This document shows, in pieces, positions 33,673 to 61,118 of a stretch of DNA of 64,000 bases (position 1 is its first letter; the number at the start of each line of letters is the position of its first letter). Under the pieces are notes generated by a model. That model did not search any database. It was not told the origin of the DNA and saw only the letters and a program-made list of their open reading frames with translations. The position numbers and the translations under genes are program-made. Source of the DNA: Kalmanozyma brasiliensis GHG001 (Eukaryota; Basidiomycota; Ustilaginomycetes; Ustilaginales); the NCBI RefSeq assembly GCF_000497045.1, contig NW_015961961.1:372001-436000 (forward strand), given 5' to 3'.

Positions 33673-36600
33673 TTACGTCACTGGTCTGCCAGAGTCATTT
33701 CGAACGACGGCGTCGTGGGCACGCTTGTGAAGGTCATTGGCGCCGTTGAACGCCGCTCCGTTCGCATGCGGCCCATCTTCTTTCGACGTGTGCCTCGAGA
33801 CCAACCACGTGATGCCAGCACCAGCAGCAAGGACCGTCATCATAGCCGTGCAGTAGGCAACGAAGCCCTTACCAAACTCGGCCGCGTCCTGCTTCCACCG
33901 CACCCATCGAGGGTCAACAGCTTCTTCGCGTGCAGCTGCCATTTCGATCTCGGTGACGGGGTTGACCAAGGCACGCTTGTCGAGGTGCTTTGACGATGAT
34001 TCGTCGAGCATGTGGTGATCCGGAGAGGCGCTGACGCCCTTTTTGAAAGCTCGAAGCTGCTCTCGCTGCTGCCACTGGCGCTCCTTCTCCCTTGTCTCGG
34101 AGTTGATCAGCTTGTAGAAGAGGTAAGTGAACCCGGCCTCGGCGGCAGCGATCGCTCCCGTGAGCATAGCCCACTTGCGCACCTTTTGCGCTCGAATTCT
34201 CCTCTCAGTCCATGTGAGCGCATGTCTCTGTGGAACAATGTTGAGCCTTTCACCAGCGTTGCGCCACAAGTCGGAGAGGATCTTTTTCGACCAGCGCTTG
34301 GACAACGGTCTGTCCAGAATTGCATCGCGCTTCTTGAGGCCAGGGTCGTCGGGGGCCTTCGTCTGCTGCTCGTCCCGTTGGCGCTCCGCTTGCAGCCGCT
34401 GTTGCTCCTTCTCCCGCGCCTTGGCACTAGTCAGCCTGTAGTAGAGGTAGGCCAACGCGCTCTCAGCACTGACGAACGCTCCAGTCACGAGGATGAACCA
34501 GTTGCGCGCCCTTCGCTCTCGAGCTCTGAACTCTGCGTGACTGAGAGGCAGTCGTCTCTGAGCGACATTAAAGTCTTCTGGCGCCATTCGCCACATCTCC
34601 ACGAGCGCATCTTTCAACGAGCGCCTGGATAGATGCTCTTCACCGACTTCGTCCCGTTTCATGACTGTGGGGCGGTGAACGGGCTCGACGTGAGTCTCGT
34701 GTTGTTGACGTTCTTGCTCCAACAGCCGCTGTCGCTCATCCTTCCTTGCTCGAGCGTCAACGACTTTATAAAAGAGGTAAGCTTTGGCAGCTTCGAAAGC
34801 GGCAGCCGCACCACCGAGGAGGGCGTACTTGCGCAAACGCTGTGCTCGTGCTTGCATCTCCATTGGTGTCAGCGGCGTTCTGTTGATCAAGGTCTTGAAG
34901 TCTGCCTCCGCCAACTTAGCCATCTCTGTGATATCTTTCAGCGAGCGCTTCGACAGAGACGCCTCGGAGCCTTCGTCGTTGTTTCGATTGACATCGCTCT
35001 CGATCGGTCCTGTGTACTGCTTGCGTTGTGGACGTCGTTTTCGACGAAGCCGCTGAAAGCCTTTCTTTTTCACGCCGTGATCCGCCGTTACCAGTTCTAA
35101 CAGCAGATACGCATTGGTAGCTTCGAACGTTGTGGCAGCACCACCAGAAAGAGCATAGGTGCGAAATCGCTTCGCTCGAGCTTTTCGCTGACTCGCGCTG
35201 AGCGATGTCTTCCTCACCAAGCTTTTTAAGTCCTTTCCAACCACTTTGGCCATTTTGGAAAGATCTTTGAGCGAGCGCTTGGACAGTGTCGCGCCACCTT
35301 CTTCGCGTTGGCCTTGATCGAAACGATGAGAGTCTGCGACCGTCGGCTGCTCGTGCCGCAGGCGTTTCTTCTTGGACTGCTGACGCTCCTGACTGATAGC
35401 CTGGTGGATGGGCTCCTTGAAGCTTGAGTAGAGCTTGAAAGCTGCCGCGCGGCCGATGGGGATCGCTACGAAGGCGTAGTCTTCAAACCTCTCGGCGTCC
35501 TCTTGCTCTTGTAGGGGCCCGATCTGCATCTTGGCAGCCAAAGTCTCCATGTCCTGTCCCGCCTCACCGAGCCTAGTTACGCCGACTGCGCGCTTGAAGA
35601 CCGGCGGGTGGCTTGGATTGTCGACCGACTGATTTTGCGGGTGCTTCTTGTTGTAAGCGACAATGAAGCCGACAAGCCCACCAAATGTGGCAACAGTGGC
35701 GGCGAAAACAGGAATGGCAAGCACCCAAGGGCTCAGCTCGCGGGTAGCCTCGACAGCATCCGCCGGCAGCTCCATGTCGAGCGGAACGATCTGTGCCGTG
35801 GCGCGTCCGTCTGCCAGATTGTTGTTCGCTCCTCCGGCATGTGGGTTGAACATGCGTTTCGCGAGATGCTCGTTTGCTACGGAGCCAGGCCGGTCCTGAC
35901 GAGTCACTTCTAACCGCTTGAAGATCATCGTGTGGATTTTCGAATCAGCGAGAACAGTGTTTGGCGTAGTCCGATGAGCTTCCGAAAGATTGGCTGGAGC
36001 AGGCGGAGGTGCATCATGCTTGGTATCCTTCGTGGAGCCAATCCATAGAAAAGCCCCTGCGACTGCAGTCAGAGCTCCAGCGCCGAGGAGGGACTTGACG
36101 ATCATCTGGTTGCTCTCGGAAGGGTATCGCTGCAAGATCATCTGAAAGTCTCGAGCGCCTCCCGCCGCGGGCGTGTTTGCAATCACGGCCCGAGCTGCTG
36201 CGAAAGGGTTAAAGCGCTTCACGAGGAGAGGACTCGCTTCGCTCTCCCTTTCGGATATAATCGTTGGTGTTCCGCGGCGACGAAGACCAGAATGGCTGGG
36301 AGCAGCGGCAGCACGAGCCTCGTTCTGAGCGACGGCTTGCTGGACTTGCGCCTCCTGCTGAGCCTGCGACTCGGCCACTTGCGCGTTGAGGTTCTGGATC
36401 GCTTCTTGATCTCGGTGCATTTTCTGACCTATGAGCAACGCCGAGCCTGCGCTGACGGCAGCAGCAACGGCCATACGAGGTCGTTGCTTGGGATCCTGCC
36501 AGAAATGGCTGTACACCTTTTTGCCGCCTTCAAGGCCTGTGTCCGTGGCATCAGCAGCGGGTTGAGATTGGAGAGATGGCCTGTCGTACAGTCTAGCCCG

Positions 36601-37128
36601 AATCAGAGCTTGATCCGCATCGCCAGTGTAGCCAGCCTCGGTGCCGGCGAAGCGGAAGGGTCGTCGAAGACGTTGTGGTGAAGAAGGCGCTTCGGAGGCT
36701 TCTTCAAAAGAGAGCCGACCGGGTCGAGGAAAGGGTTTTGGTGTCGATGCTTCGATACCGGACTCCGTAGCTTCAGCAGCTTCAGCAGCCTCAGCAGCGA
36801 CGTTCTTGTTGCCCCGAATACGCCGACCGAGGCGAGCAAAGATGTCAGCGATGGCTTCCGAAGCCTGCGAGAGACCTTCAACGCGCTGTTTCGTCAATCA
36901 TTCCAGGAATGGAATTGAGTTAGCCTAGTCGCATTGCGAAGCACATCATGGCTGAGACGGTTCCGGTCTGCTTACGCGTTTGACTTTTGGTCCGGATGGT
37001 CCGGCCGCCTTGGTAGGGCGTGAAGTCTTGCGAGCCAGCTCAAGATCCGACTTTGCCTCTCGTAGAGGCTGGCACGCAACGGCCGCGATCAATAGATACA
37101 CAGCCACAAATAGAAAAAGAAGCCTCAT
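33673..37128 (-). CDS. Secretory modular precursor with repeated helix units and Kex2-type sites (unrecognised)
   Basis: Two exons: 37128..36976 and 36885..33673, with a 90-nt intron (gtaagc...cag), give 1121 aa. Exon 1 encodes a signal peptide (MRLLFLFVAVYLLIAAVAC) and ends ...KVKR. Exon 2 has no ATG of its own at its start. L/V/I-x-K/R-R processing-type sites end at residues about 51, 275, 375, 395, 483, 588, 698, 795, 806, 904, 915, 1022 and 1106. Four clear tandem repeats (about 589-1022) begin SLKD or WSKK, share an Arg-rich stretch followed by a hydrophobic helix (for example KYALLGGAAAAFEAAKAYLF), and end L-[SD]-[KR]-R. Spacing is 107-110 residues. Earlier units (276-588) keep a 100-108 spacing and a helix, with weaker sequence likeness. 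The pattern resembles Kex2-processed repeat proteins of fungi, but each unit carries a membrane-type helix. Function is unknown. Confidence 0.75.
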
Positions 37129-37981
37129 CGCCGTGGATCGTGACTGCAGTCAGCAAGGTGATGAGTGACTGAGGAGGTGTGTGAAGCAGCATGCGAAGAT
37201 CAACTTCGAGGTGAGAAGAGTACCGAGGCGCAAGAACAGAAAGGACTTTGGCGGGGTCGTAGATGCAGGCATCAGCTCCTCATATACCCTGAAAAGTGGG
37301 CTAGTGGCGTGTATATTTGGGCCCCACATGAAGGCCGTCATCGTCCAGGCAGTGGGTGGCTAATCCAGGCAACGAACGTCGAGCGAAAACTTCGACTTCA
37401 TTTGCAGGAACAAATCTGCTAAAAGGGTCGAGTGATGCGGACTCGGCGGATATGAGTATGGGCGTGCGATGATCAGGCACCGAAAGCAATAGAAGATCTA
37501 GCTCGACGAGACGAGTTGACAACGCTTGTCCCTGAAAAGCACGATATTGAACGAGTTTCCGCAAGACGGGGTCTTTCGACTTAGTTGGAGTCAGCTGATC
37601 AGTCCGGTCTCGACGTTCGACTGGCGCAAATGAATCAAGCGGGGCCGTCTGATATAGGACCGATGACTTCAAGCCGTCGACGCCTCTCGACGTTGGCAGC
37701 TCGGCTGCTGTCATGGGATCAAGTCGGCGATATACAAAACAAGCGGCGACTTGGTGGCGACCTCGCTCGACCGAAGCAGCTCCGCTGTTGCTTCGCTTTA
37801 ACAAATACCAAAAATGGAGCGCACGGACGCGAAGGTGTTGATCTTCCTATGATATTCGGCTGTGCTGCGTGTTCATGCAGCTGAAAGGGGGAGTGTCACC
37901 CTCCACCACTGTGCATCCATCCTTCCATCCATATCCTCCTCTTCGTCGACCCGTAGCTGTCTCTGCACTCGCTCTGACGTC
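37129..37981. promoter_or_regulatory. Divergent region between the modular precursor (-) and AIP1 (+)
   Basis: An 853-bp region. A weak TATA-like element (gtatatg, minus sense, near 37282-37288) lies about 155 nt upstream of the precursor ATG. No coding signal was seen. Confidence 0.35.
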
Positions 37982-39805
37982 ATGTCGGCCACGCTACAGA
38001 ACGTGCTCCCGGGCAACCCTGCCACCATCCGAGCTCAATCCACCAAGATCTCGGTGGATCCCAAAGGCGAAAAGGTCGTCTACTGCCAGAACCGCACTGT
38101 CTTCATTCGCTCCATCACCGACCCCAACAAACCCGCCATCGCCTACTCGCAGCACTCGCAGCCCACCACAGCAGCGCGCATCTCGCCCACCGGCTACTAC
38201 TGCGCATCCGCGGACCAAGCTGGCAACGTCCGCGTATGGGACCTGGTCGGTGACGAGCAGATCCTCAAGAACGAGGTCAAGGTCATCGCTGGACGCATCA
38301 ACGACCTTGCGTGGGACGGCGAGTCGAAGCGCATCATTGCCGTCGGTGACGGTCGCGAGAGGTTCGGACACGCCTTTTCATTCGACAGCGGATCGAGTGT
38401 GGGAGAGATCACGGGTCACAGTCGACAGATCAACGCGGTGGCCATCCGCAAAGACCGCCCCTTCCGCGCTGTCACCGCAGGAGACGACAACGCGCTCGTC
38501 TTCTACCACGGTGCGCCGTACAAGTACAACAAGACCATCAACACACACACTCGCTTCGTTCAGGATGTTGCCTATGCGCCCAACGGAGATCACTTTGTTT
38601 CGGTCGGTTCGGACAGCAAAGTCTTCGTCTACGATGGAAAGACGGGCGACACGGTCGTCGAACTCTCCGAAAAGGCGTCCGGTGGACACACGGGGACCAT
38701 CTTTGCCGTCGACTACTCGCCCGACAGCAAGAGGATCGCTACGGCGGGCGCGGATGGCTTTGTGAAAGTGTGGGACATCGCAGCTGCCAAAGTCGAGGCA
38801 TCACACGACTTGAGCAGTCAGAGCAGCCAGAAGGTGGACGATCAGCAGGTGGGACTCGTGTGGGCAGGCAGTCGCATCATCTCGCTCAGCTTCGCAGGCG
38901 CGTTGAACGTCATCGAGGAGGGCGGAAAGGTCAACAAGCTCTATGGCGCATGCAAGAGCTTTGGTGTGCGATCGCTGGATCTCGCCGAGGACGGCAAGAC
39001 GCTCGTTGGTGGCAGCTACGACGGACGCGTGCTGTCATGGTCGCCAGATGGAACTTGCAAGCCGATCACGGGTGGCGAAACTTTGACGGCTGCTGTGCTG
39101 GGTGTCCACTCGACCCGCGATGGTGTCGTTGTGGCAAGCATGGACGATTCGGTGCGCAAGATCTCGGGTGGCAAGTACGACGGTGCAGCTGTAGCTGCTT
39201 CGAGCCAGCCCAAGGGGACCGCAGCTTCGACTAGCGGCGTCGTCGTCATCGCCGGTGCGCAGGGGATCGACATCATCGAAAACGGCAAAAAGACACATCA
39301 CGCTACCACCTACACGCCCTCCTCAGCGGCCATCTCGGCAGACGCATCGCACGTCGCTGTCGGAGCTGAAGACGGAAAGGTGCATCTGTACACACACTCA
39401 TCCGGCTCGCTCAAGGAGAACGGTACGCTGACCAACAACCGATCGGCCGTCACGGCGCTTGCCTTTGACCCTCAGCTCTCGCTGCTCGCTGCTGGCGAAT
39501 CCACCGGCAAAATCCAGGTCTACGACCTCGCCAGCAAGTCGCTCAAGATCGCGCACTGGGTGTACCACTCCGCGCGCATCAACGACATCCGCTTCTCGCC
39601 CGATGGCACCCACGCGGTCTCGGCGAGCTTGGACACCCACGTCTACGTGTGGAGCGTCAAGAAGCCGATGAAGAACATTGCGATCAAGAATGCGCACGCC
39701 AATGGCGCGCAGGCGGTGACATGGTTGGCCGACAACGAGTTTGCCAGCGCCGGTGCGGATGCGGTGGTGCGGACGTGGAAGGTGAGGCGTCACGAAGGGG
39801 CGTGA
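37982..39805 (+). CDS. AIP1: Actin-interacting protein 1 (AIP1/WDR1)
   Basis: 607 aa from ATG 37982 (MSATLQNVLPGNPATIRAQS). WD repeats fill the protein and form two seven-bladed propellers in known AIP1 structures. Diagnostic blocks include the N-terminal ISVDPKGEKVVYCQNRTVFI, WDLVGDEQILKNEVKVIAGR, GHSRQINAVAIRKDRPFR, FVKVWDIA, and the C-terminal VYHSARINDIRFSPDGTH and WSVKKPMKNI. Family knowledge: AIP1 enhances cofilin-driven actin filament disassembly and caps severed barbed ends at cortical patches. In-frame codons upstream from 37862 are leader. Length is typical. Confidence 0.95.
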   Translation: MSATLQNVLPGNPATIRAQSTKISVDPKGEKVVYCQNRTVFIRSITDPNKPAIAYSQHSQPTTAARISPTGYYCASADQAGNVRVWDLVGDEQILKNEVKVIAGRINDLAWDGESKRIIAVGDGRERFGHAFSFDSGSSVGEITGHSRQINAVAIRKDRPFRAVTAGDDNALVFYHGAPYKYNKTINTHTRFVQDVAYAPNGDHFVSVGSDSKVFVYDGKTGDTVVELSEKASGGHTGTIFAVDYSPDSKRIATAGADGFVKVWDIAAAKVEASHDLSSQSSQKVDDQQVGLVWAGSRIISLSFAGALNVIEEGGKVNKLYGACKSFGVRSLDLAEDGKTLVGGSYDGRVLSWSPDGTCKPITGGETLTAAVLGVHSTRDGVVVASMDDSVRKISGGKYDGAAVAASSQPKGTAASTSGVVVIAGAQGIDIIENGKKTHHATTYTPSSAAISADASHVAVGAEDGKVHLYTHSSGSLKENGTLTNNRSAVTALAFDPQLSLLAAGESTGKIQVYDLASKSLKIAHWVYHSARINDIRFSPDGTHAVSASLDTHVYVWSVKKPMKNIAIKNAHANGAQAVTWLADNEFASAGADAVVRTWKVRRHEGA

Positions 39806-40283
39806 GCTTGGATGCCGCTCTAGACCATGTTGTAGCAAATACACTTTTGTTCACGGGCATCTCTGTGTTGGGCAAATGGCGTTCAGCGATCGAGCCGCCA
39901 GTCGCATTTGCCTTGGAGAAACGAAGCGGCCTTGCTCGTTGGCGTCTGATGAGCAAATCACTCATTGACAGGCGGGTCTGATCACTGCGGCTCCTTTTCG
40001 TGGTAGACTGAAGCGTGATACAGTAGCTTCCTTGGTCGGCGGCCAATTCGCCTCGAGAACGAACAGAGGCCACTCGACGAGACGTCTCCTGGAGCACTGG
40101 AATCTCACTCTCATCGATGCATATAAGAAGGGAAGGTAGTTTGGCCTCTTTTCGTCCATGGTTACCCACTCGCTCGCCCCACAGAACTCGCCAGTACATT
40201 CCTTTGCATCCTTCGCTCCCTCCTCTGTACCCTCACTCGTTCGCCTCGAACATCCACACCAACCGGGGATTCGCTTGCCAAGA
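39806..40283. promoter_or_regulatory. Promoter region of the secreted peroxygenase with TATA element
   Basis: A 478-bp region. ATATAAG at 40121-40127 lies about 157 nt before the chosen ATG. The peroxygenase frame is open from 40158, but the signal peptide starts at 40284. Confidence 0.45.
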
Positions 40284-41546
40284 ATGCGATTCGCCATCCG
40301 ATATGCGTGCTCGCTGCTCTCGTTCATCTTTCTCGTCGTCCCCTCAATGGCTCTGCCCAACATTGGCGCTCTGATGAAGCGGGGTCCCGACGGCGAGCCG
40401 TCGCACTTCGAAAGACGTCTTCTCTCGGCAGACCCCATCTCGCTGCACACCATGATCACCAGTCTCCGCGACACGGTGTCCGAGCTGAACAATCGAACTT
40501 CCGTTCCCGAAGCAGACGATTTGATGCGGACGCCCGTGAGGCAGGTTACATCAGACCAGATCTACCGCGCGTTCAACATCCAGCCCTCGGACGCGATGGC
40601 TGACTACTACCGGCGACGCAGCCTCATGCCTCTAGGAGAAGACTCTTCGCATGCGTACCAGCCTCCTGCGCAGGGGGCACGACGTGGGCCGTGTCCAGGA
40701 TTAAACACGATTGCTAACCACGGCTATTTACCCCGAAACGGCATCGTCAACCCGATCCAGCTCGTCGTTGGCACATTCGAAGGCCTGAACCTCAGTCCGG
40801 ACCTAGCCGGCATCCTCGCCGCAATCTCCTTTATCGGCATGGGCGATCTCCTCCAAATGCAGCTGTCCATCGGCGCCAAATCCGGCCTGGGCGACGGACT
40901 CAACCACCACGGCATCCTCGAAGGCGACGGCTCCGTCACCCGCCTCGACCACTACTTTGGCAACAGCTGGGATGCCAACCCCGCCCTTGTGGAGATGTTC
41001 ATCAACGAGACCAACACCTGGGGTCATGGGGATGTGACACCGTATTCGCTGGCTCACTCGCGCTATCGTGCCTGGGACTATGGACGCAAGTCCAACCCAG
41101 TGTTCGATTTCAACCCGTGGCGAATGCTCGTGGCGTATGCAGAGAGCGGATTTGTGCACCAGCTACTGCGTGGATCGCTGAGTCGTTTTGACGAAATCGC
41201 CATTCGCAGTTGGTTTGTCCAAGAACGCTTTCCGGAAGGTTGGAGCAAGCGTTTGGTGCCGTTCAGCACACCAGAGATCCTCGCTTGGGCAGGTCTCATT
41301 GCGGGACTCAAACCGATCATTCCAGGAACCGGCGATGGTCACGGGGGGTTTGTGCCGACGCCCAACACCGATCCTGCATATAGCAAGATGGCCGGCATGA
41401 TGGGCAACAAGTACGCAAATACGACGGTGGGCGACCTGCTCTGCTACGCCGGGAACGAGGTGCTCGGCTTCATCCCCTCGCAGTTGATCAACATCGTCGG
41501 CGCTTTGGGTCTCAAGGGGGTGAGCACCGAGATAAAGTGCAAATAA
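40284..41546 (+). CDS. Secreted heme-thiolate peroxidase (chloroperoxidase/unspecific peroxygenase family)
   Basis: 420 aa from ATG 40284, chosen because it starts a signal peptide (MRFAIRYACSLLSFIFLVV, ending near SMALP). A propeptide-like stretch ends at LMKR. The family mark is RGPCPGLNTIANHGYLPRNG, in which the Cys of PCP is the proximal heme ligand. Distal-side motifs follow: GLNHHGILEGDGSVTRLDHY contains the EGD-S-x-x-R pattern of unspecific peroxygenases, where Glu acts as acid/base and Arg positions it. ETNTWGHGD follows. Family knowledge: such enzymes use hydrogen peroxide to oxygenate or halogenate varied substrates outside the cell. The long N-terminal region before the Cys motif (about 130 residues) marks the long-type group. 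It is convergent with the arrestin gene. Confidence 0.87.
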   Translation: MRFAIRYACSLLSFIFLVVPSMALPNIGALMKRGPDGEPSHFERRLLSADPISLHTMITSLRDTVSELNNRTSVPEADDLMRTPVRQVTSDQIYRAFNIQPSDAMADYYRRRSLMPLGEDSSHAYQPPAQGARRGPCPGLNTIANHGYLPRNGIVNPIQLVVGTFEGLNLSPDLAGILAAISFIGMGDLLQMQLSIGAKSGLGDGLNHHGILEGDGSVTRLDHYFGNSWDANPALVEMFINETNTWGHGDVTPYSLAHSRYRAWDYGRKSNPVFDFNPWRMLVAYAESGFVHQLLRGSLSRFDEIAIRSWFVQERFPEGWSKRLVPFSTPEILAWAGLIAGLKPIIPGTGDGHGGFVPTPNTDPAYSKMAGMMGNKYANTTVGDLLCYAGNEVLGFIPSQLINIVGALGLKGVSTEIKCK

Positions 41547-44686: not shown

Positions 44687-45184
44687 TTAGCAGACATTGA
44701 CTGGCACATCGACTGGAATGCTGCTAGGCTTCTGCGTCTTGCCCCAGCGTTGCGAATCTACTGTGACGATAGAAGCTGTTGGGTCGATCCTGGAGCCGAT
44801 GACCATCCCATCCGCAACCTCGTCCTGCGCCTCGGGCAAGTCGGAACGCTCTTGGTAAAAGACCGGGGGGCTGCCGAGCAGGATGAGACAATTGACCATG
44901 GCGGGGAACTGTTCATTATCCCTGTGCATCAGCACAAACATGTCGTCTTCCGTGTATTCGAGACGGTAGGGGCCTGTACCGGCCAGACAGGCGGCAATGT
45001 CGGTCGCAGTGGTGCCGTTGTCGCTGATGGGCGGAGGATTGGGGACTGGGGACGTGACGCCGTCCCACAGCCAGCCGTGAGTGGCGGCAAGCGTTGCCAA
45101 GGTGGACGAGCTTGAGGAGGCAGGAAGGGCACTCGCTGTCGCCAAGATGCATGCCAGGAGGCATGCGAGCTTGAATACGAGCAT
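44687..45184 (-). CDS. Small secreted protein, candidate effector, no recognised domain
   Basis: Single-exon gene of 165 aa. The N-terminus (MLVFKLACLLACILATASA) is a textbook signal peptide, with cleavage expected after ASA. A short Ser run follows. The mature part has three cysteines (CLAG, NCLILL and the C-terminal residue), an acidic surface-type composition and no membrane helix. I recognise no catalytic motif or family. Small secreted proteins of this size are common among smut effectors, so that role is plausible but inferred. It lies between an arrestin gene and phosphoglucomutase, not within an obvious effector cluster. Confidence 0.65.
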   Translation of the reverse strand: MLVFKLACLLACILATASALPASSSSSTLATLAATHGWLWDGVTSPVPNPPPISDNGTTATDIAACLAGTGPYRLEYTEDDMFVLMHRDNEQFPAMVNCLILLGSPPVFYQERSDLPEAQDEVADGMVIGSRIDPTASIVTVDSQRWGKTQKPSSIPVDVPVNVC

Positions 45185-48052: not shown

Positions 48053-49837
48053 TCACTCCTTGCAGTCGGCCCAGATCGAATCGAGCGCCCGGACCCTGAG
48101 ACTGACCAGCTCCAGCTTATCGTCTCCGATCGACACCTTCAGCTGGCTTGGCGTCTGGTCGTTGTCAAAGAAGAACACCGACGTGCCCGCCAGCTCGCCG
48201 TCGTTGACAAACACCTCGATGACGCTCCTGTCCACCACGGCTTGCAGCTTGATATATTGATCCCTGCCCGTGGTGGAGAGGTGCGCGCTTGGAGGGAGGG
48301 GGCCTAGAATGTGCTGCTCAGACGTGTAGTTGGCTTCGTAACGGATGATGCCGGACGTCTTGTCGGTGAAGAAGGGGTTGTCGGCTGCGAACGAGGGACC
48401 GGCAGCACGGCGGTCGATAAAGGCGACGGCTGGCTCTCCCATCTGAATGCCGGTTTTGACGCTCTGTTGGCCGTCGCCAGAGGAGATCTCGAACGAACCA
48501 ATCGTGTTGTACGTCGCATTCGTGCCAGCGGGGAGCTTGAAGGTGGCGACAATGTTGAACGCGCCTTCGCCAGTCAGCGCAACAGTCTGGTTGCCGAGGT
48601 TGCCTGTGCCGTTGGACCTGTACAGCGTCTGCCCACCGAGGGCCGAGAGGTTGGCAGGCTTGTTGTTGAGGATCAGATCGCCAAACTGCGGAGCGGGACG
48701 GTAGTACTTGAGCGTGAGCTCACGCGGCAGACTCTGGATCGACCGGAACGGCGTGGTAGGCACAACGTTGGTGTACTGCCAGTTGCTCGCCCATGCCACC
48801 GCGTAGGCCTTTTTGCCCGGACTGTTGTTCCAGCTGCTAAAAGCGTAGAAGTCCTTGCTAAAGTCCATCGTCCTGACGGCGTTATCGCGTGGCGTGAATT
48901 TGGATCCGTCCCAGTCGCCGACCCAGTACTGGACGAAGGAACCTCCGACAGGCGCGCCGGGGTTGATCGAGATGGCCAGCACCCACATCATCTTGCCGTC
49001 ATCCGGACCACCCTCGACGGGAACCTGGAACAGATCGGGACATTCGTACTGGTAGCCCAGAATGCCGTACGACTGGAAACGGCTCACCTCAGTCCAATCC
49101 TTCATGTTGGGCGACGAGTAGAAGACGATGCCGAACTCCTGCGAGAGAGCAAGCGCGACGATCCAGCGCGACGAGGTCTCGTCCCAGAAGGCCTTGGGAT
49201 CGCGGAACTGCGTCTGGTTGCGCGAGATCACCGCGGGCGGATACTTGGTGAAGTTGACGCCATCCGAGGAGTAGGCCAGGTGCTGCGTCTGAGATGTCGG
49301 CGTGTTGAGCGTGTAGAAGGCGACGATGCGTTGATCCTTGGGGGTCGACTCGTCGAAGAACCCTGTGGTGTTTTCGAAGTCGATGACGGCGTTTCCGCTG
49401 AAGATGCCGTGACCTTCCTCTTCGGGAGCGATGGCAATGGGCAGGTTCTCCCAGTGATACAGGTCTTTCGAGACGGCATGGCCCCAGTGCTGGTTGCCAG
49501 CTACGTTCTGAGTCGGGTTGTACTGGTAGAAAAGATGCCAGGTTCCGTTGCTGTAGACGAGACCGTTGGGATCGTTCATAAAGTTCACCGTGGGGGAGAA
49601 GTGGATCTGGGGTCGAAGCGGCTCGGTGTAAAGGGGAGGCTGGTAGCCCTGGAGCGAGCTGCCGTTGGAGTTGCGACACTGGCCATTGTTGTTGCTGGCG
49701 CCATTGTTCATCCTGGGAAACAGGTCGCGCGGCGAGTGGCGAAGGTCGAAGGGGTTGGCGGGCGAGGGAGCGGCGGAGACACACGCGGCAGCGGCGGCGA
49801 GCGTGGCCAGAGCAGCGCTGAAGAAGGTAGCCTTCAT
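48053..49837 (-). CDS. SUC2: Secreted invertase (GH32 beta-fructofuranosidase)
   Basis: 594 aa, single exon. A signal peptide opens the protein (MKATFFSAALATLAAAAA to about residue 22). A Ser/Asn-rich stretch leads to the five-bladed propeller. GH32 catalytic residues are visible: the nucleophile Asp in FMNDPNG, the transition-state Asp in QFRDPKAFWDE, and the acid/base Glu in YECPDLFQVP. FYQYNP and GIFSGNAV also match. The C-terminal beta-sandwich includes QAVVDRSVIEVFVNDGE. It splits sucrose, and possibly other fructosides, outside the cell. Many N-x-S/T sequons fit glycosylation. A TATA element lies far upstream (50168-50174), which implies a leader of about 300 nt. In plant-associated smuts this enzyme competes for apoplastic sucrose, but a secreted transporter partner is not in view. 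Confidence 0.95.
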   Translation of the reverse strand: MKATFFSAALATLAAAAACVSAAPSPANPFDLRHSPRDLFPRMNNGASNNNGQCRNSNGSSLQGYQPPLYTEPLRPQIHFSPTVNFMNDPNGLVYSNGTWHLFYQYNPTQNVAGNQHWGHAVSKDLYHWENLPIAIAPEEEGHGIFSGNAVIDFENTTGFFDESTPKDQRIVAFYTLNTPTSQTQHLAYSSDGVNFTKYPPAVISRNQTQFRDPKAFWDETSSRWIVALALSQEFGIVFYSSPNMKDWTEVSRFQSYGILGYQYECPDLFQVPVEGGPDDGKMMWVLAISINPGAPVGGSFVQYWVGDWDGSKFTPRDNAVRTMDFSKDFYAFSSWNNSPGKKAYAVAWASNWQYTNVVPTTPFRSIQSLPRELTLKYYRPAPQFGDLILNNKPANLSALGGQTLYRSNGTGNLGNQTVALTGEGAFNIVATFKLPAGTNATYNTIGSFEISSGDGQQSVKTGIQMGEPAVAFIDRRAAGPSFAADNPFFTDKTSGIIRYEANYTSEQHILGPLPPSAHLSTTGRDQYIKLQAVVDRSVIEVFVNDGELAGTSVFFFDNDQTPSQLKVSIGDDKLELVSLRVRALDSIWADCKE

Positions 49838-59465: not shown

Positions 59466-61118
59466 TTAATGCTTCTCGAGATCGTGGCTGTGGTTGCTCG
59501 TCTTCATGCCATCGATTTTGTCGTCGGTGCTTGAGGTCTCGTAAATGTCGGGCTGGGCGCCTTGAACATGCACAACACCACGACGAAGCTCCTCCTCGCG
59601 CTCCTTGGTGTTGATGCTGGTGTTGTGGAAGGCGACGATCCAGGGCGTGTTCTCCATGAACTCGTCCATCTCCTCGAGCGTTCGACCTTTGGTCTCGGGC
59701 AGGATCAACCAGAAGGTCAAGGCGTTGCTGAAACCGCCGACGGCAAAGAGGATGTAGTACTTCCAGCCGACGCTCTCGAGCGCCTTGGGCGTGACCTGGC
59801 CAATCATAAAGTTGGCGATCCAGCAACTCATGCTGGTGAGAGCGGTTCCCTTGGCTCGGATGTTGGTGTTGAGCAGCTCGACCGGTACCGCCCACGAAAG
59901 CGGACCGATACCGGCGCTGAAGAAAAAGTTAAAGATCCAGATCATGGCGATGAAGGCTCCACCGGCGGCCGAGGAGAAGCGCGGGCTGTCGGCAGGGTAA
60001 ATGGCCTGCAGCGCCGTGGCGACCGCAAAACAAGCACCCGCCATGGCGTTGCACACAATCAACGGCCATCGACGACCCAGCTTGTCGACAAACAACACGC
60101 ATGCTCCCTCGCCAGCCAGCGCGATGATCGAGTTGATGCTCTGCAGCAGGAAGATGCGGTTGTTCGAGTAGCCAAACGCACCAAAGATCTCCGGTGCGTA
60201 GTACTGAATCGCAGCCACACCCGTCATCTGGACCGAGAACTGAAGAATGACGCCGATGGCCACCTTGCGAATGTTCTGCGAGCTGTTGAAGATCTCACCC
60301 CAACCACTGGCGGTGCCCTTCTCGACGGCGAGCTGCGCCTTGATCTCGGCCAGCTCGGCGCGGACAAAGACGTCGGAGGTGTCCCCACGAGCGTGGAGAC
60401 GAGCGAGAGAGCGAAGCGCCTCCTCCTCGCGACCCTTGGACATGAGCCATCGCGGCGACTCGGGGAAGAGCATGATGAGGAACGCGAGCGGCACGGCAGG
60501 CGCAATCTGAAGACCGAGAGGGAATCGCCACTCGAACACGGTGTTGTGGTGGTGCAGGTTGGTTCCGTAGACGACGAAGCTGGCAATGAGCGCACCGATG
60601 CCGAGGAAGAATTGCTGAAGCGTCGTGAGCCTTCCTCGAATCGAGGGATGCGCGATCTCGGATTGGTAGAGCGGTGCAAGCATGGAAAGCATTCCAATGC
60701 CGACGCCGGCGAAAAAGCGGCCTGCCATCATCATGCCCTGGTTCTGAGCAGCGGTCTGCAAGACACCGCCGAGGATGAAGACGATGGCACCGACCATGAT
60801 GGCGAAACGCCGCGAGAAGGAATCGGCGATAAGCGAGGCAGGGATGCATCCTACGAGCGCACCGAGCAGCATGGAGCTGACGATGAAACCAATGTAGTCG
60901 GAACTGGGGTTCTTGGTGACGCGGAGGAAGTCCGGTGCGACAATGACACCGGCAATGACACCAAGATCTGTCGGAGCGAAAACATGCGAGTGTCAGTGGA
61001 TCGTGAGGCGATGCGATGAAGAATGTGAATAGGAAAGCTTACCATAACCGAAGAGAATGGAGCCGAGGGCTGCAAAGCAGCCGCAAAGCCATGTGTACAG
61101 CTTAGGAGGGAGCGCCAT
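59466..61118 (-). CDS. MFS sugar transporter (sugar porter family)
   Basis: Two exons: 61118..61043 and 60967..59466, with a 75-nt intron (gtaagc...gacag) that completes the Asp codon of FGYDLGVIAG, the classic helix-1 motif. Total 525 aa with 12 predicted helices. Sugar-porter signatures are present: GRFFAGVGIGM, PESPRWLMSKGREEEAL (end of the first half), QFSVQMTGVAAIQYYAPEIF, DKLGRRWPL, and PETKGRTLEEMDEFM at the end of the second half. The long central cytosolic loop and C-terminal tail are usual. CATATAAT at 61203-61210 (minus sense) lies about 85 nt upstream. Together with the GH93 and GH51 genes on either side, arabinose or arabino-oligosaccharide uptake is a reasonable inference. Confidence 0.92.

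Follow-up and report, generated by a model that had tools for sequence, protein, structure and literature searches.

Kex2-processed precursors in fungi and the PSEUBRA_003402 gene

The described systems that come nearest to PSEUBRA_003402, a gene on the minus strand of a 64 000-nt stretch of the Kalmanozyma brasiliensis GHG001 genome (contig NW_015961961.1, positions 372 001 to 436 000; the whole stretch is called the window below), are fungal secretory precursors with Kex2 sites. In Ustilago maydis, Rep1 is a protein of 652 amino acids (aa) with 12 amphipathic repeats of 34-55 aa, and Hum3 one of 828 aa with 17 repeats of 31-36 aa (PMC4617103); in total, 8 of 15 repeat-containing U. maydis proteins appear to be processed by Kex2 (PMC8528282). 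Ece1p of Candida albicans (271 aa) gives eight Kex2 peptides including one membrane-active helix, candidalysin (PMC12153327); its non-identical peptides lie between KR sites and mature in two steps, by Kex2 and then Kex1 (PMC5784256, PMC12153327).

K. brasiliensis is a yeast-like member of the Ustilaginales and a relative of the smut fungi. Strain GHG001 is a gut isolate from a chrysomelid larva found on sugarcane roots (PMC3868848), and the window sits on contig C14 of its 17.27-Mb genome. PSEUBRA_003402, the single gene of its type known, probably encodes a Kex2-processed secretory precursor, that is, a polyprotein of the KEP/Rep1/Ece1-like kind (KEP, Kex2-processed repeat protein). Such processing, first suggested in a first-pass annotation of the window, is well supported on sequence grounds: by the number and placement of the sites, by their conservation from repeat to repeat and by the presence of a kexin-type gene in the same genome. 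The units of the predicted 1121-aa chain are listed below by their positions in the window.

36214..36885, minus strand: N-terminal piece (exon 2 part), residues 52-275, with a moderately hydrophobic segment at 187-205; it ends in LVKR
35854..36213, minus strand: unit U1, residues 276-395, with a transmembrane (TM)-like helix at 313-335 and the sites IFKR 375 and LAKR 395
35590..35853, minus strand: unit U2, residues 396-483, with a TM-like helix at 440-462 and the site VFKR 483
35275..35589, minus strand: repeat R0, residues 484-588, a diverged fifth copy ending in LSKR
34945..35274, minus strand: repeat R1, residues 589-698, net charge +15, ending in LSKR
34621..34944, minus strand: repeat R2, residues 699-806, with the sites VMKR 795 and LSRR 806
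34294..34620, minus strand: repeat R3, residues 807-915, with the sites LKKR 904 and LSKR 915
33973..34293, minus strand: repeat R4, residues 916-1022, ending in LDKR
33721..33972, minus strand: last unit, residues 1023-1106, with a TM-like helix at 1059-1081, ending in LHKR
33676..33720, minus strand: C-terminal tail of 15 residues, 1107-1121

PSEUBRA_003402 resembles Rep1 and Hum3 in fungal order and in being a long secreted precursor with repeats bounded by Kex2 sites (PMC4617103). However, the repeats of those two proteins are amphipathic and 31-55 aa long, whereas those of PSEUBRA_003402 measure about 105-110 aa and are predicted to be helical, and TM-like helices occur in three unrelated units. 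Set against the Rep1 type (amphipathic repeats of about 34-55 aa), the units of 84-120 aa are long, and only the N-terminal piece and R1 have a maximal hydrophobic moment above shuffle level. Neither Rep1 nor Hum3 surfaced in our homolog searches of about 5.8 billion proteins, no direct sequence comparison with them being made. Rsp1 and Rsp3 of U. maydis share with PSEUBRA_003402 the presence of repeats with Kex2 motifs; unlike those found here, the repeats of Rsp1 are hydrophilic and 18 or 21 aa long (PMC4617103). Ece1p is alike in architecture, being a KR-divided chain of non-identical pieces; its peptides are short, whereas the helices of PSEUBRA_003402 lie in units of about 100 aa, giving eight modules of 82-108 aa plus the N-terminal piece. 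The initial verdict that the protein is unlike any class was therefore too strong, since Ece1p, Rep1 and Hum3 are precursors of the same kind. What differs from these three is the length of the modules, their heterogeneity and the TM-like helices.

KEPs have in common with PSEUBRA_003402 a signal peptide, here a putative one in the spliced model only, and at least three homologous repeats between Kex2 sites. The signal peptide of the spliced model was called by heuristics and the deposited model has none. R0-R4 are tandem repeats between Kex2 sites, of which a KEP has at least three of at least 8 aa; at 31-42% identity to R2 they might fail the published repeat scoring. Under the rules of Umemura 2020 the annotated protein must have a signal peptide and its repeats may not exceed 100 aa (PMC7329392), a limit that the repeats of PSEUBRA_003402 exceed at their whole length of 105-110 aa and that R0, R1 and R4 exceed even after trimming of their basic ends. 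Le Marquer 2019 discarded TMHMM-positive proteins (PMC6339444), and exclusion would be expected there because three segments have transporter-like hydropathy. By their published rules, both pipelines would be expected to miss PSEUBRA_003402.

Number, spacing and placement of Kex2-type sites

Kex2 is reported to favour Arg at P1 preceded by Lys at P2, with Leu or some other aliphatic residue in position P4 (PMC8528282). The sites of PSEUBRA_003402 fit this motif, Leu being common at their P4. In residues 21-1121, [LVI]xKR occurs 11 times (1.14 expected) and [LVI]x[KR]R 15 times (2.84 expected), and none of 20 000 composition shuffles reached 11 or 15, respectively. Bare KR is about twofold enriched (15 versus 6.97 expected) and RR is not (11 versus 10.5 expected). 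Thirteen dibasic sites had been counted in the first-pass annotation; there are 26 [KR]R pairs, 15 of them with L, V or I at P4. The distribution of [LVI]xKR was also determined among 85 open reading frames (ORFs) of the same genome: 11 copies are found in PSEUBRA_003402, two in one other ORF, one in each of 25 and none in 58. This background, drawn from the window and 200 kb of contig C1 (264 kb together), consists of the longest non-overlapping single-frame ORFs of at least 300 aa, not all of which need be genes.

The sites from 275 to 1106 are evenly spaced, with a coefficient of variation (CV) of 0.108; random placements average 0.64, and a fraction of 2e-5 of 50 000 of them was as even. 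In this test, site pairs <25 aa apart were merged and the start at 275 was picked after the data had been seen; with the site at 73 included the CV is 0.284 (P = 0.0025). The series of sites at even intervals noticed at the outset was thus confirmed, with the reservation that its starting point is post hoc. Placement follows the hydrophobic segments of the chain: none of the nine segments contains a site, and the gap after every one of them contains one or more. LSKR closes three of the five repeats, the other two ending in LSRR (806) and LDKR (1022). The genome has one match to the proprotein-convertase P-domain, which adjoins a subtilase domain and so marks a kexin-type gene.

Units between sites are 84-120 aa long, R0-R4 measuring 105-110 aa whole. 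Trimming of the basic ends leaves eight predicted modules of 82-108 aa, among them R0 (103 aa), R1 (108 aa) and R4 (105 aa); R2 and R3 come to 95 aa only if their inner sites are used.

Four short spacers lie between paired Kex2-type sites, at 36214-36273, 35854-35913, 34621-34653 and 34294-34326 (all on the minus strand). After trimming they are 18, 18, 9 and 9 aa long, with net charges of -1 to -4, and both 9-residue spacers start with Asp. They would be released as small peptides.

Homology between repeats and conservation of the site

Residues 484-1022 consist of five homologous units, R0-R4. Four had been recognized before (589-1022), and R0 at 484-588 is to be added to them: it aligns with R1, R2 and R4 at z-scores of 6.8, 11.1 and 4.3 and with R3 at only 1.6 (Smith-Waterman versus 300 shuffles), and a genome search with R2-R3 finds it at E 1.2e-4. 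The repeats are 31-42% identical to R2. In all ten repeat pairs synonymous change has come close to saturation or reached it (NG86/JC dS from 1.2 to infinite), and dN ranges from 0.50 to 1.30. A spurious ORF was considered as an explanation and rejected because the frame is deposited as a gene and nonsynonymous differences are proportionally fewer than synonymous ones (pN < pS) in all 10 pairs.

Because no ortholog was found, conservation of the site could be tested only between repeats. With unit borders placed at the sites, no 5-mer window is better conserved than the site itself (2.98), and YLFYK in helix 3 comes second (2.8). Since cutting at the sites could itself force their conservation, units were re-cut inside helices: in four units cut inside helix 3 or helix 1 the site keeps the top rank (LSKRS, 3.4), and windows clear of it reach at most 2.67 and 2.2 in the two cuts.

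No homology was found between the non-repeat units (the N-terminus, 276-375, 396-483 and 1023-1106), either to one another or to R0-R4 (best z 2.1; Smith-Waterman, 300 shuffles). Three of these non-repeat units have Asn-Pro within five residues after KR.

Hydrophobic segments, predicted helices and charge

Hydropathy, hydrophobic moment and approximate insertion energy were computed on simplified scales, the values of which serve as ranks only. The segments at 313-335, 440-462 and 1059-1081 have hydropathies (KD19) of 1.75, 2.06 and 1.63, values like those of transporter segments in this window. The top soluble-protein chunk (1.42) is slightly exceeded by R3 (1.51), and segment 187-205 (1.33) falls just short of it; R0, R1, R2 and R4 (0.87-1.18) are inside the soluble range, from which the first chunk of the GH32 protein (1.87), taken as that protein's own N-terminal hydrophobic segment, was omitted. 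By approximate insertion energy R3, R4 and 187-205 (2.1-2.9) are just outside the soluble range (lowest value 3.0) and R0-R2 (4.3-5.7) inside it. The hydrophobic helix claimed for nearly every unit is accordingly strong in three units, moderate in two or three (187-205, 807-915 and, by approximate free energy only, 916-1022) and weak in the rest; the five repeats are mildly hydrophobic.

These values are also those that an ordinary polytopic membrane protein could show, with a signal peptide, TM segments at 313-335, 440-462 and 1059-1081 and R0-R4 as one lumenal or extracellular helical domain. The LxKR motifs would then be incidental, or only the lumenal ones would be used, giving a partly processed membrane protein. 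Three segments as hydrophobic as transporter segments of the same window suit such a topology, as do R0, R1, R2 and R4, which fall in the soluble hydropathy range expected of one soluble domain. However, the would-be cytosolic loops (336-439 and 1082-1121) hold three [LVI]xKR against 0.14 expected, a number reached in 6 of 20 000 shuffles, and between repeats the site is better conserved than the helix windows. We regard a polytopic protein as quite unlikely.

An AlphaFold2 model of R2, made from a five-row alignment, has helices at 2-22, 27-44 and 46-85, with the site in a non-helical end; its confidence is low. The expectation that single-helix fragments would be released is therefore only partly right, this repeat unit being predicted as three helices. 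Net charge is +15 in R1 and +8 in R4 and between -3 and +4 in the other six modules (-3 in U2 and in the last unit), so that 'Arg-rich', as the fragments had been described, holds mainly for the units starting at 589 and 916. There are two cysteines in the chain, at 19 (in the signal peptide) and at 1063. Amphipathic peptides as a general property of the precursor were considered and rejected, the maximal hydrophobic moment being at shuffle level outside the N-terminal piece and R1.

Gene models

The 90-nt intron, the coordinates of the spliced gene and its 1121-aa product, as first proposed, were reproduced by splicing and translation of exons 1 and 2. The elements of the two competing models are as follows.

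36976..37128, minus strand: exon 1, residues 1-51, with a signal-peptide-like start at about residues 1-20 (signal-peptide heuristics, KD19 2.5)
36886..36975, minus strand: intron of 90 nt, GTAAGC...AAACAG, with a CTAAC branch-like motif at 36923
33673..36885, minus strand: exon 2, residues 52-1121 plus stop; equals the deposited protein from its residue 15 onward
37288..37329, minus strand: alternative first exon of the deposited PSEUBRA_003402 model, 14 codons, without signal peptide
37282..37286, minus strand: TATA-like motif TATAT, 158 nt upstream of the ATG of the signal-peptide exon (consensus match only)

The deposited protein has 1084 aa, and its first exon reaches the same acceptor over a 402-nt intron. 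Signal-peptide-like starts were called by our own hydropathy, charge and cleavage-motif heuristics, not by SignalP; such starts are found at 7 of the 1974 ATGs in the window, exon 1 of PSEUBRA_003402 being one of the seven, and a phase-0 GTRAGY donor follows two of the seven, again including exon 1. The ATG of the signal-peptide exon has G at -3 and its donor is GTAAGC, compared with T at -3 and GTATAT for the deposited first exon. The TATA-like motif sits between the two ATGs, the deposited one being upstream of the motif. Because of this rare combination of a signal-peptide-like start with a GTRAGY donor, the G at -3, the GTAAGC donor and the position of the TATA-like motif, we prefer the signal-peptide exon as the probable first exon.

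If instead the deposited model were correct, translation would start at 37329, the protein would be cytosolic or mitochondrial and the LxKR sites would never meet Kex2. This model is the one present in NCBI/UniRef, and residues 58-75 (1121-aa numbering) form an N-terminal basic stretch with a moment (muH) of 0.68 (z 2.0), acidic residues included. On the other side, the 2013 annotation was ab initio, combining GeneMark, Augustus and a third gene finder in MAKER with CEGMA training (PMC3868848), the start and donor contexts given above speak against the deposited exon, and the excess, placement and conservation of the sites would be left unexplained. We consider the deposited start very unlikely to be the true one. 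No transcriptome work evidently on strain GHG001 was found in the openly licensed literature.

The annotation of PSEUBRA_003402 may need correction, in that the deposited first exon may skip the signal-peptide exon.

Searches for relatives

Among about 5.8 billion proteins, the whole protein (E up to 0.001), R4 with the last unit (E up to 1) and R1, R2 and the start of R3 (E up to 10) each retrieved only PSEUBRA_003402 itself. The candidates scored numbered 7989 for the whole protein (those sharing most words only), 2090 for R4 with the last unit and 7010 for the R1-R3 start. Since the method needs common 5-residue words and similar length, this negative does not prove absence from other smuts. 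Within the K. brasiliensis genome, no paralog beyond the gene itself was found with the whole protein and three pieces as queries; other places gave E 0.13 and 0.72 only, plus E 0.002 at the stretch of the deposited first exon. Pfam, NCBIfam and PDB sequence searches with the deposited protein returned insignificant matches only (best E 1.3, 0.064 and 2.9, respectively). Searches of the openly licensed literature brought up no paper evidently concerned with the PSEUBRA_003402 protein, and among the papers listed the locus tag did not occur.

Proposed processing and its products

As we picture it, the chain would enter the endoplasmic reticulum through its N-terminal signal peptide and be translocated entirely to the lumenal side. 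Translocation of the whole chain is proposed because six of the nine hydrophobic segments seem too weak to stop it and because consecutive homologous units with one helix each could not share one orientation in a membrane. The genome's kexin would then cut in the late Golgi after the L/V/I-x-K-R linker sites seen in the sequence, and trimming of the Kex1 type would follow. The expected products are eight modules of 82-108 residues with few cysteines, the N-terminal piece (about 200 residues) and a few short spacers (9-18 residues). Five of the modules would be diverged copies of one helical design and the three others would carry a TM-like helix.

By analogy, we tentatively suggest that the products act at a membrane or surface outside the cell, a site of action chosen because the nearest precedents, Rep1 and Ece1p, act there; the products might coat the hyphal wall, or insert into membranes of competitors or hosts. 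A purely structural role, in which the modules are processed as proposed and coat hyphae or aerial structures like the repellents of U. maydis instead of acting on foreign membranes, is compatible with Kex2 processing and differs only in the job of the products. Its closest functional precedent, Rep1, comes from a fungus of the same order: Kex2 cleavage of Rep1 yields amphipathic peptides, which assemble into surface-active, amyloid-like fibrils (PMC4617103, PMC8528282). The cysteine-poor, heterogeneous units of PSEUBRA_003402 also suit such a role. However, Rep1 repeats are 34-55 aa long and amphipathic (PMC4617103), whereas the present units have 84-120 aa and most are not amphipathic above chance, and the modelled unit is alpha-helical. 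Such a role is possible, if somewhat doubtful. We give little credence to a stronger proposal, namely that PSEUBRA_003402 represents a distinct class of precursor, a polyprotein delivering different hydrophobic-helix modules of about 100 residues, several of them ready-made TM helices, as a multi-component membrane-acting cocktail.

Several observations weigh against a Kex2-processed precursor. The deposited model has no signal peptide; moreover, the tag PSEUBRA_003402 differs from the scaffold-based tag style in PMC3868848, and the model may stem from a later annotation with other evidence. The segments at 313-335, 440-462 and 1059-1081 are hydrophobic enough for ordinary TM insertion. Two of the five repeat-end sites, LSRR 806 and LDKR 1022, deviate from LSKR, and Asp at P3, as in LDKR, is reported to be unfavourable for Kex2 (PMC8528282). 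Conservation of the site is seen between repeats of one gene, with no ortholog among the approximately 5.8 billion proteins. The N-terminal piece and R1 are the only parts more amphipathic than shuffles (z about 2), and the R2 model is uncertain (pLDDT 61.7, pTM 0.28).

Neighbouring genes

A WD40 gene (37862-39805) adjoins PSEUBRA_003402. Beyond it lies a Peroxidase_2 gene at 40158-41546 (plus strand), which we take to be of the unspecific-peroxygenase type and which has a signal-peptide-like start at 40284. An ORF of 85 residues with a signal-peptide-like start is found at 44929-45184 (minus strand), a longer ORF that encloses it having no Pfam match; the short ORF is possibly a small secreted protein or a first exon. 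A GH32 gene (48053-49837, minus strand) and a sugar transporter gene (59466-60872, minus strand) are separated by about 10 kb, in which a MATE transporter gene lies.

Significance

If cleaved as proposed, PSEUBRA_003402 would reveal a gap in the surveys of secreted fungal peptides, to which TM filters, repeat-length filters and the prediction of first exons may contribute. If PSEUBRA_003402 did represent a distinct class, more such genes may exist in fungal genomes, and KEP catalogues would not list them, since TM proteins, long repeats and annotations lacking a signal peptide were removed in the surveys. Its processing would also pose a cell-biological question, namely how tandem one-helix units stay accessible to a lumenal protease. 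If the precursor is cut as its sites suggest, fungi would secrete, besides short peptides, whole helical modules, some of them with TM-like segments.

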